Source of the DNA: Acidobacteriota bacterium
Lineage (GTDB): Bacteria; Acidobacteriota; Terriglobia; UBA7540
Length of the DNA stretch: 36,008 bases
Direction: 5' to 3'
Assembly (NCBI GenBank): GCA_902812365.1
Contig: CADDZC010000040.1
Span: 1-36,008 of the forward strand
The position numbers were made by a program, and so were the translations under genes. Positions 27,618 to 30,555 of this stretch are shown here, one piece after another (the first letter of the stretch is position 1; each line of letters starts with the position of its first letter). The notes under the pieces were generated by a model. The model was not told the DNA's origin. It searched no databases and saw only the letters and a list, made by a program, of their open reading frames with translations.

Positions 27618-29060
27618 TCACGGGGCGAAGCGAGGCGCGGCGCCGTGGCGCTCCGCCCCGAACGCCGCCAGCTTGGCGGTGATGCGGTCGCGGATCCAGT
27701 GCGGATCCCACCACTCGACAGGATTGACCGGGACGCCATCGAGCAGCACGGTGAAGTGGAGGTGATCTCCGCCCGCCAAGCCCGTCTCACCGCTGTGGCC
27801 GATCAACTGGCCGCGCTGGACGCGCTCCCCGGCCTTCACGGTGATTTGGCTCAGGTGGCCGTACAGAGTCTGGAGGCCGCAGCCGTGGTCGATAATGACA
27901 GCGTTGCCGTAAATTCCGAAGAACCCGGCAAAGACCACTTGGCCGTCATTGGCTGCGGGGGCGGGCATGTGAGCGGTGCCGGCGAGATCGAATCCGAGGT
28001 GGGTTTGGTGATCCACCACCTGGCCCCGATACAGGTAGGTGCGGTCATCGGCGAAGTGGGCTTCCACCTTCGTATTACCGAGCTGGATAAAGGGCTGCGT
28101 CCACAAAAAGTGCGGACTCGTGTGCTTTGAGAACTCGGCCATCTGCCCGGCTTCAACCTGGCGCAGATGGCCGTTGATGAGCAGAAAATCCTTGAGCAGG
28201 CTGCCTTGATCATCGAGCTCCGCCATCTGGCTCATGATCGGCGGCACGACCCGTTGCAGGAAGGGATCGGTGAGTTCCAGCGTCGAGGTGTGAAACCGCT
28301 GGGGAAAGAGTTTGTACGGAAACGTGGTCACGGTTTGGTTGCCGGCATCGTCGCGCGCCACAATGCGGACGGGCGCGCTCGGATCAAGATCGTAAGGGAA
28401 GGCGAAAAGGCACAAGCGCGTCTGGGGCGCCGAATCCTGAACCGGCCAACTCGGAAAGAAATATTTCCCCGCCTCGACGCCGGACTGGACCGTGCCGGGT
28501 GAGACGGCGAAGATCACCATTTCCGAGCCGCCCTGGTTGATGTAGTGCTGCGCCGTCAGCACTTCCACTTGTGGCGGCGTCCAGCGGACGGGAACGTCAA
28601 GCGCCACGCTGGCCCGCCCGCCGCGAAAGAAGCGCCCCCAGGCGTCGTTGGTCGCCGTCACCACCAGGGTGGCCCGGCCGGGCTGAAGTTCGGGCAGGGC
28701 GTGCCGGGCGATCCGGGCCGTCACGAGCCAATCTTCGGCCGGCCGCCGCCACCCGAAGCTCCAGCCGCGCGCTGCGGTTGGGGCGGCGGGAGAAACGGAC
28801 AGCGAGGAAACCGCGAAGGTCCTCCCGTTCTGCCGAATCTCCACGCCGACCGACTTCAGACGGTGCCGCGCGTCCCGAACGCGAAACTGGAGAACGGTGT
28901 TTGAGCCCAGCCCCAAGACGGGCGCGTCGAAGCGGATCTGCGGCGCCGGATTGCGGACGATGCTCCAGAGGAAGCCGAGCGCCGCCGCCGCCAAAATCAC
29001 CAACAGGAAGCCGGCGCCGGCTCCCCACCCCCCGGTGCCGCTCCGAGCTCCCCTTGCCAA
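27618..29060 (-). CDS. Membrane-anchored M23 family metallopeptidase
   Basis: 480 residues from TTG 29060, chosen because GGAGGT lies four bases upstream; a TTG at 29087 has none. After a basic N-terminus one hydrophobic helix (about 19-36, FLLVILAAAALGFLWSIV) anchors the protein to the inner membrane. A long beta-rich region (about 40-300) precedes the C-terminal LytM domain with HLGFDLAGTAHM (His...Asp zinc ligands), YGHLSQITVKAGERV and GDHLHFTVLLDG (HxH). It would cut peptidoglycan cross-links or, if the ligands are changed, act as a regulator; here all ligands seem present, so activity is likely. It follows the IPT/TIG gene by 72 bp. Confidence 0.9.
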   Translation of the reverse strand: MARGARSGTGGWGAGAGFLLVILAAAALGFLWSIVRNPAPQIRFDAPVLGLGSNTVLQFRVRDARHRLKSVGVEIRQNGRTFAVSSLSVSPAAPTAARGWSFGWRRPAEDWLVTARIARHALPELQPGRATLVVTATNDAWGRFFRGGRASVALDVPVRWTPPQVEVLTAQHYINQGGSEMVIFAVSPGTVQSGVEAGKYFFPSWPVQDSAPQTRLCLFAFPYDLDPSAPVRIVARDDAGNQTVTTFPYKLFPQRFHTSTLELTDPFLQRVVPPIMSQMAELDDQGSLLKDFLLINGHLRQVEAGQMAEFSKHTSPHFLWTQPFIQLGNTKVEAHFADDRTYLYRGQVVDHQTHLGFDLAGTAHMPAPAANDGQVVFAGFFGIYGNAVIIDHGCGLQTLYGHLSQITVKAGERVQRGQLIGHSGETGLAGGDHLHFTVLLDGVPVNPVEWWDPHWIRDRITAKLAAFGAERHGAAPRFAP

Positions 29061-29132
29061 ACCACACCTCCGCCGGGACTGTTCCAAGTGCCGATGATGC
29101 GGCCAAAAACGAGACGATCCCCGCTCGCCCCT

Positions 29133-29798
29133 TCAGTGCAGCGCGCGAACCAGCGCCTCGACGATCGCCTGGCTGTCGCTCGGGCGCAGAGACGGGGCGA
29201 CGAAATTGTACGTCTGGCCGGAGCGGAGAATGACGTGAAAGCTGCCGGTATTGAGGCCGAGGATCATGTTGGGCGCAATCTCCCGCACGTCCGAGGAGGG
29301 GACGGCAAAGACCTGCCGGCCGGCCTCGGTGTAGACCAGCCGGCCGGCCGTGTAGGCGATTGTCCCCGAAGCCTTGCCCGGGGCGGCGAGGATGCCGGCC
29401 ACGTCGCCGAGGTTGAGCACGTCGAACTGCACGGCCTTCGCCGCCCGCGCGGCCTCCGTCACCTCGAAGGCCGTCTCCACCTCGCCCTCGTCCGGGTTGA
29501 CCACGAACAAGCTCGTCGCGCCGGTCGGAGCGTTGGGCGACACTTGAATGGCCACGGAGAGCTCGGAGCTTTTCTTGAAGGTTGTCGACAGAACCCGAAT
29601 GCCGGGGTTGGCAAAGGCGACCTTCGCGCCGGGAGCAAAGTTTTTGCCGGTGACTTTGAGCGCCGTCGAGCCGCCCCGCGCGGCTCGCGCCGGCTCCACC
29701 TTCGTGACCGCCGGCGCGCTTTCGGCGGCCGCGGCCCACGTCGGCGCGCTCAGCGCCACCGCCAGCAGGATCGGGGCTTTTCGAAAGCGGATCACCAT
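29133..29798 (-). CDS. Secreted IPT/TIG-domain protein
   Basis: 221 residues from ATG 29798. The signal peptide MVIRFRKAPILLAVALSA is cleaved near WAAAAE. Residues about 30-110 form an IPT/TIG immunoglobulin-like domain (VTKVEPARAARGGSTALKVT, FKKSSELSVAIQVS, VTEAA). The C-terminal half (about 115-215) is a different beta-rich domain containing GRLVYTEAGRQVFAVPSSDV and GQTYNFVAPSLRP. No enzymatic motif; the role is likely binding or structural outside the cytoplasm. It is upstream of the M23 gene on the same strand, which suggests a shared cell-envelope role. A start 18 codons earlier (29852) would put an Arg/Ser-rich head before the signal peptide. Confidence 0.8.
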   Translation of the reverse strand: MVIRFRKAPILLAVALSAPTWAAAAESAPAVTKVEPARAARGGSTALKVTGKNFAPGAKVAFANPGIRVLSTTFKKSSELSVAIQVSPNAPTGATSLFVVNPDEGEVETAFEVTEAARAAKAVQFDVLNLGDVAGILAAPGKASGTIAYTAGRLVYTEAGRQVFAVPSSDVREIAPNMILGLNTGSFHVILRSGQTYNFVAPSLRPSDSQAIVEALVRALH

Positions 29799-29973
29799 GG
29801 TGACTGAGCTCCCCGCTCGGGCAGAAGGCCGCGCCGAAAAAGCGGTGCCCATTCCTCCCCGTGCACCGCGGCCGATGTCTCTCGAACGGCGAGGGCCGAA
29901 CCCGGCTCCGCTGAGCGCCGCGCCCGCCCGGCCTTCCCATTAGATACGGATTCAACGAGCCGCGGTTGTCGAG

Positions 29974-30002
29974 GCCAGCCGCCGGCGGTTCTAGCGGCTG
30001 GC
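29974..30002. repeat. GC-rich inverted repeat at the edge of the AT-rich island
   Basis: GCCAGCCGC (29974-29982) and GCGGCTGGC (29994-30002) are perfect complements with an 11-base loop. It stands where the sequence turns from GC-rich to AT-rich. No T-run follows, so a terminator is not supported. Confidence 0.6.
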
Positions 30003-30021
30003 AATTTAAGTTATCATATTG

Positions 30022-30244
30022 ATTTTCAATAGCATAGTGGCTTTCGATCGGCTGGCGTTGGCGGCTTCTACGGATTTTCAACAACTTACGATCCACCCGA
30101 ACCCCGGGTTTTTAGACTAAGTCGTTTTTATTCAACGACTTGGTGGCTTTCTGCAACACCCTCTACGTATTTTCAACAACATAGCGGCTTCGTTTTTGAG
30201 CCGAAGCCAATATATTATGTATTTTCATTAACTTAGTGGCTTCG
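30022..30244. repeat. Five degenerate direct repeats, helically phased
   Basis: Copies begin at 30022, 30074, 30128, 30169 and 30221 and follow ATTTTCAAcAAC then wTAGyGGCTTC with changes; the second copy keeps only the left half. Spacings are 52, 54, 41 and 52 bases, which are 4.95, 5.14, 3.90 and 4.95 turns at 10.5 bp per turn, so all copies face the same side of the helix. Copies differ from each other by several bases, which is unlike a CRISPR array. No cas gene is near. Protein-binding sites or a structural element are possible. Confidence 0.65.
30117..30143. repeat. Hairpin inside the repeat array
   Basis: CTAAGTCGTT (30117-30126) pairs with AACGACTTGG (30134-30143), 10 bp with one G-T pair and a 7-base AT-rich loop. 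It overlaps the third repeat. A second hairpin, GGCTTCG/CGAAGCC at 30186-30208, overlaps the fourth copy. Confidence 0.6.
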
Positions 30245-30399
30245 CTCCTCAAAATCAAGATGTTTTGACGTCCGCTCATCACCTGCCTTTAGTCGGCCAC
30301 ACCCTCGTTTGGCCGTCGCCGAACGGGGATTTAGCCGGGGCAAAACCGGCTGGGGTTGATAACGATCCGCGGAGCGCTGAGCCGAGAGCATAATAATTA

Positions 30400-30405
30400 T
30401 ATAAT
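30400..30405 (+). promoter_or_regulatory. Possible -10 box upstream of tlyA
   Basis: A perfect TATAAT in an AT-rich patch, with the weak -35 CTGAGC 17 bases upstream. A second perfect TATAAT lies at 30489-30494 without a -35. Either could start the tlyA-nadK transcript. TTGACG with TTTAGT 17 bases later (30265-30293) is a third, weaker pair. Confidence 0.35.
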
Positions 30406-30555
30406 ACACGCCGATAAGTCACTTGTCAAATCCAGTTCAACGGTACGGTTGACTCGGCCGGGCGCGCTCTCCGCTTCCCGCCCCCGGTTATAATGCCACG
30501 AGAGGACTCGCGCACCGATGGCCCGCCCCGGGTAGCCCGGGCCGGCGGGCGGTTG

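Follow-up and report, generated by a model that had tools for sequence, protein, structure and literature searches.

The array and its setting

Five degenerate repeats occupy a gap between divergent genes in an acidobacterial contig, and raise the question of what kind of element they form and which neighbouring genes it may serve. The window, that is, the whole stretch of 36,008 nucleotides analysed here, belongs to a 3.5-Mb genome (G000). The first-pass annotation took the repeats for a phased protein-binding region of this locus; the comparison described below points to a dispersed cassette, for which an RNA or translation-coupled role is at least as likely as DNA binding because the array apparently lies inside a transcribed leader.

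The repeats start at 30022, 30074, 30128, 30169 and 30221, with intervals of 52, 54, 41 and 52 bp, as originally described, and they occur far more often than chance would give: with 2 mismatches allowed, the unit pattern has 117 matches in the genome versus 1 for the reversed control. The AT-rich island is likewise genuine (G+C of 43% in the array versus 65% in the window), and the divergent gap around it measures 833 bp, provided that the left gene starts at 29798. A two-part motif had been ascribed to all five repeats; four units carry it, whereas unit 2, here as in most of the other copies, has its first half only. The parts of the array are as follows.

30012-30016, + strand: TATC flank motif (GATA in the sense direction), marking the downstream edge of the cassette
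30022-30045, + strand: unit 1, the unit closest to the left gene
30074-30090, + strand: unit 2, a half-unit (ATTTTCAACAACTTACG); the second half of the motif is missing in nearly all copies too
30128-30150, + strand: unit 3, mean pairwise identity 0.81
30169-30192, + strand: unit 4, the best-conserved unit, mean pairwise identity 0.97 in 29 copies
30202-30219, + strand: anti-unit, an inverted half-copy of the unit; 30202-30212 pairs with 30182-30192 of unit 4
30221-30244, + strand: unit 5, predicted to be the first transcribed in the sense direction, mean pairwise identity 0.87 in 29 copies

Dispersed copies in the same genome

The 801-bp region of the window has matches at 30 other places in G000 (best E 3e-44), all of which cover the array wholly or partly, so that the element is not specific to its locus as had been supposed. 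At least 31 array copies can be aligned (30 fetched copies and the window copy), and the window array is one of about 40 dispersed cassettes, each composed of a promoter, a tiny open frame and the repeat array within roughly 500 bases. Many contigs end inside cassette copies (L248-L256), indicating that recent, near-identical copies break the assembly and that the copy number is underestimated.

Nearly all aligned copies share the order unit 1, unit 2 (half), unit 3, unit 4, anti-unit, unit 5, at intervals of 52 (63 in a few copies, which resemble one subfamily), 53-55, 41 and 52 bp. In 13 of 30 copies the GATA motif follows unit 1 after 7 nt, and the majority of the remaining copies have degenerate forms of it. 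Mean pairwise identity is 0.81 for the spacer between units 4 and 5, including the anti-unit, 0.62 and 0.51 for the two stretches flanking unit 3, and near-random to the left of unit 3 (0.35) and in the leader before unit 5 (0.32). Spacer identities as low as about 0.3 suggest that a large part of the spacers has become effectively random by drift under an unchanged layout. The earlier view that this is not a tandem repeat, a CRISPR or a decayed gene is upheld. Judged by its repeats, the array is unlike a CRISPR, whose repeats are near-identical with unique spacers: its units are degenerate and recur in the same five-unit layout at about 30 places. An Rfam scan gave no covariance-model match up to E = 1, and the open-access literature yielded no description of such an element, which therefore seems undescribed as far as we searched.

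A predicted promoter and leaderless open frame precede the array

Features on the opposite strand connect the array with the genes to its left; the promoter and open frame among them, at 30233-30429, were out of sight of the first-pass annotation.

30424-30429, - strand: -35 box TTGACA of the promoter TTGACA-N17-TATTAT
30401-30406, - strand: -10 box TATTAT, within the family motif GTGTAYTATnTAGTWAT
30233-30391, - strand: putative leaderless upstream ORF of 52 codons, with its AUG 9 nt past the -10 box and a predicted stop within unit 5
29799-30394, - strand: predicted 5' leader of about 595 nt, from the putative transcription start to the start codon
29133-29798, - strand: gene for a secreted IPT/TIG-type protein (PF09099, 23.3 bits, cut-off 22), the predicted target
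27618-29087, - strand: M23 peptidase gene (PF01551), next after the IPT/TIG gene

A near-consensus sigma70 promoter (score at least 9.9) reads into the array in 26 of the 28 testable G000 copies, and the sense-side mean score over all copies is 12.3, compared with 6.7, 5.7 and 4.8 in three control region-strands. The distance from promoter to array clusters near 150 bp, and the sequences between them differ among copies. The extended promoter TTGACA-N14-GTGTACTATnTAGTNAT has 16 matches in the genome with 3 mismatches (control 0), nearly confined to array copies or contig ends. On the same side, 65 copies in the related genus g11, comprising genomes G010, G023 and G054, have TTGAC-N18/19-TA[GA][CT]CT (also described as TTGACW-N17/18-TAGYCT). 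In many g11 copies (L098-L133, L208-L247) the promoter spacer GGCCTAGCATGGTAGYCT holds an inverted repeat, GGCTA-N6-TAGCC, over the -10 box, which is possibly an operator. For the matching unit type in another relative, G001, the search gave no clear sigma70 promoter.

An AUG lies 7-15 nt past the -10 box in 23 of 26 G000 copies, approximately at the first bases of the presumed transcript, and leaderless genes have been reported for Acidobacteria (PMC3160421). In the 23 frame bodies (about 120 nt each), frame 0 contains 2 stops versus 13.8 expected, a number as low as this being reached in 0 of 2000 dinucleotide shuffles. The other two frames have 21 and 18 stops versus 21.8 and 13.6 expected, thus showing no depletion, and the bodies are open in 22 of 23 cases in frame 0 versus 9 and 12 in the remaining frames. 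Neither a conserved peptide nor a codon bias was detected in the G000 copies; all three codon positions have a G+C content of 0.69, and the codon usage is not gene-like, suggesting that the peptide is unconstrained. Selection seems to act on the openness of the frame and not on its product. The frames end at several points in or just before the array, with no single stop position. In g11, GTG or ATG is located 4-11 nt past the -10 box in 49 of 65 copies, most commonly as GTG at +7; the stop test is uninformative in this genus, since its copies are related to each other and all three frames are depleted.

Some g11 frames run through the array as KRTGEVVENK-like repeats, reaching up to 110 codons in G023, and could be taken to indicate a repeat-encoded peptide or a decayed gene. 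However, roughly half of the g11 frames end ahead of the first unit. In G000 the intervals of 52 and 41 shift the frame, and the short ORF runs into the array in each of the three frames. With no codon-position bias in addition, a coding repeat was rejected for G000, and we regard the whole explanation as extremely improbable.

Orientation and downstream genes

Flanking genes in five genomes were called with our own codon-usage caller in place of a standard annotator, and each pair was described by the signs of the genes on the 5' and 3' sides of the unit strand. Divergent, (-,-), (+,+) and convergent pairs numbered 12, 8, 3 and 1 in G000; 7, 16, 3 and 3 in G010; 18, 24, 0 and 2 in G001; 6, 13, 2 and 4 in G023; and 2, 6, 1 and 0 in G054. 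Among same-strand neighbours, the strand complementary to the unit, which is sense to the next gene, prevails by 67 sense to 9 antisense (p = 4e-12), although sites shared within g11 are counted separately, and as G010, G023 and G054 have common sites the effective sample is smaller than 67 + 9. G001 by itself gives 24 to 0, while the 8 to 3 of G000 is not significant. That the copies nearly always read toward the next gene suggests that the array is probably part of a transcribed leader controlling this gene, and not a one-off protein-binding site.

In the window, unit orientation and promoter both face left, making it very likely that the array is a control element for the envelope genes (IPT/TIG and M23), one of the two targets first suggested; they give no backing to the other, tlyA-nadK. 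A conserved regulon did not emerge when the flanking genes of three genera were compared: guaB (G000/G010) alone is clearly paired at the same position, a few further matches are at family level, and the downstream genes share no common function or orthology between genera. No array was seen upstream of IPT/TIG homologues in nine relatives; G001 has one unit-like match near such a homologue, but downstream of it and in the opposite orientation. The absence of the site from relatives had been named beforehand as grounds for abandoning the idea of a control element. The window site is indeed absent in the nine relatives, while the element family itself is conserved. At one G001 locus (L142), only a few bases separate the end of a unit from the probable GTG start of a gene for a UvrD/PcrA-like helicase, too few to accommodate a promoter.

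Distribution in the family and the question of helical phase

With 1 mismatch allowed, 23 of 39 family genomes contain the core TTTTCAAYAAC-N6-GCTTCGTT, whose middle letters are specific to the genus; in the form TTTTCAAYAAC-N6-GNTTCGTT with 0 mismatches it was found in none of 296 genomes sampled from the rest of the phylum. One named public contig, from an Acidobacteria bacterium, has an exact long match. By these sequence searches the cassette appears to be restricted to one acidobacterial family.

The first-pass annotation attached importance to kept helical phase, which does not hold as a rule. In g11 the element contains two core units at a distance of 66 bp, the interval of 65-66 bp corresponding to 6.2-6.3 turns and hence out of phase; in G001 the intervals range from 40 to 243 bp without any phase. 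Whole-turn spacing is thus not kept in relatives, and in G000 it appears to be a single layout inherited by descent.

These data bear on the idea that the array is DNA bound by a regulator or nucleoid protein at an asymmetric two-part site. The strict layout with poorly conserved spacers agrees with a multi-site binding region, as do the variant interval of 63 bp (one turn longer) and the two-part core AACGAA-N8-GTTRTTGAAAA, which is common across genera. G001 further contains a second unit type, AACGAACCGGATATGTTGTTGAAAA (about 28 copies in L134-L177), with several TTGTA-like boxes before the unit at steps of about 10 bp. The sigma70 promoter, where found, usually lies about 100-135 bp downstream of this type, which looks like an upstream activating region; such activator-like placement upstream of promoters keeps the protein-binding explanation alive. 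Against it, the array lies downstream of its own promoter in G000 and g11, the phase is broken in g11 and irregular in G001, and the anti-unit and open frame are left unexplained. Taken as a whole, protein-bound DNA is an improbable account of the array.

The anti-unit and candidate hairpins

Two hairpins were originally described. The pairing of 30182-30192 with 30202-30212 is kept across copies (97% paired), whereas the one at about 30118-30144 is private to the window copy. The anti-unit can pair with unit 4 in 97% of cells and with unit 5 in 86%, two alternatives of the kind expected of a switch, though the copies decide neither strand nor structure. For both candidate hairpins and on both strands, covariation did not exceed the controls and no double-sided changes were seen; one pair shows a slight preference for the sense strand (7 G-U versus 1 broken cell), too weak for use. 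In G001 the matching unit type is mostly located between same-strand genes, and in 5 of 14 cases at most 50 nt past a stop codon, a placement that fits a role after translated RNA.

Copying and concerted evolution

Sites are not shared between genera, and the window locus is shared with none of nine genomes. Among g11 copies, roughly 15 of the 30 from G023, and the majority of the ten fetched from G054, occur at G010 sites, with flank identities of about 70-88%. Spacer identity is about 0.76-0.86 within G010 and within G023, and 0.61-0.76 between copies that occupy the same site, one pair excepted; spacers mostly closer to same-genome than to same-site copies suggest concerted evolution in g11. 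In G010 (L098-L133) two tails were noticed, one subfamily ending in short direct repeats GTCCCATTCGTCTCATTTGTCCCA and another in TGTCCCACAATTTTA.

Recent copying is visible in G000, where L027 and L028 share a 373-bp block at 100% identity, which begins near the transcription start, stops exactly at the end of unit 1 and lies between unrelated flanks. C31/C109, C30/C82/C85/C95 and C20/C37 have cassette ends in common, and the blocks shared by copies at contig ends stop at different points in different pairs. On the 5' side, the edge of shared blocks falls anywhere between the transcription start and a point about 75 bp above the -35 box; on the 3' side, it falls between the interior of unit 1 and about 80 bp past that unit. 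Ends that vary in this way appear more consistent with ectopic gene conversion or imprecise copying than with a fixed-end transposon.

The same copies could nevertheless be those of a selfish, non-autonomous MITE-like element that carries its own promoter, with units kept for movement and an orientation reflecting tolerated insertion places. Recent copies between unrelated flanks (those just listed) and the few sites common to different genera are as this would have it. On the other hand, the shared blocks have no fixed end, no terminal inverted repeats were seen, neither G000 nor G001 has the RAYT/Y1 transposase, many sites are kept within one genus, and a 67:9 sense orientation is unexpected of neutral insertion. 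We consider the MITE-like explanation a lesser possibility, doubtful though far from negligible.

A possible translated-leader mechanism

To the reading of the array as the 3' part of a dispersed, attenuator-like cis-regulatory cassette with a translated leader, spread by copying and gene conversion, we give about an even chance. It builds on the dispersal of the cassette, its orientation bias, promoter, AUG and open frame, the conserved parts of the array and the homogenisation of copies, all evident in the genomes compared. The minus-strand sigma70-type promoter TTGACA-N17-TATTAT would start an RNA with AUG almost at its 5' end, and a leaderless frame of no fixed sequence (52 codons in the window) would be translated and stop inside the array. 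Next in the RNA would come AAGCCRCTAAGTTRTTGAAAA, in five copies, together with a single complementary anti-unit, and after these about 200 nt of further leader and the IPT/TIG-M23 genes. Translation of the short frame may bring ribosomes to the array and thereby select the pairing there, or the exposure of the long untranslated leader, and either could set read-through or translation of the downstream gene in cis. Transcription and leaderless translation are predicted steps here, and so are the switching and its signal. Several findings fit this mechanism poorly, namely the hairpin without covariation, the lack of a single stop position, the unrelated downstream genes of different genera, and in G001 a second unit type upstream of the promoter and a matching type with no clear promoter.

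Comparison with known systems

Leader-peptide attenuators such as the trp leader consist of a promoter, a short translated ORF and alternative pairings, followed by the structural gene. The cassette resembles them by sequence in having a promoter and then a short open frame upstream of a gene; it differs in the lack of peptide or codon conservation, in its five repeated units, in the unrelated genes it precedes and in that no terminator was recognised. Clustered operator arrays of regulators hold several degenerate sites at near-regular spacing, whereas this array is situated inside a presumed transcript and its spacing is unphased in relatives. MITEs and intergenic repeats (BOX, RUP, Correia/NEMIS) are non-coding sequences of a few hundred bp, dispersed and often beside genes. 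The cassette is of similar size, dispersed and often gene-adjacent, and shares with MITEs the recent copies between unrelated flanks, but it has a promoter, a leaderless ORF and a strongly one-sided orientation, without terminal inverted repeats or defined ends. REP/REPIN sequences with RAYT (PMC3116915, PMC3733652) are comparable as short extragenic repeats, numerous per genome and similar within it. In contrast to their palindromic unit of 20-40 bp, the cassette units are non-palindromic direct repeats, only the anti-unit being inverted, and are oriented to the downstream gene with a promoter attached. Mobility by REP/RAYT was rejected, Y1_Tnp being missing from the element-rich G000 and G001 and present in several genomes without the element.

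The observation that started this work is real and larger than first noted, and its phased-binding interpretation is only partly right; the function of the cassette is predicted from sequence comparison. In its widest form, the proposal would be a family-wide device in which the array reads out the leaderless translation of a short ORF whose sequence is not fixed, giving one ribosome-state signal to dozens of unrelated genes, with copies spread by ectopic conversion. This extended version seems rather unlikely. A repeat family restricted to one acidobacterial family and preceding many different genes, bringing its own promoter and an open frame that seems selected but codes for nothing in particular, would be a shared switch that spreads by copying. 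The cassette would offer a test of how leaderless translation might serve regulation, and of how cis-elements may evolve in concert across a genome while their sites stay stable within a genus.
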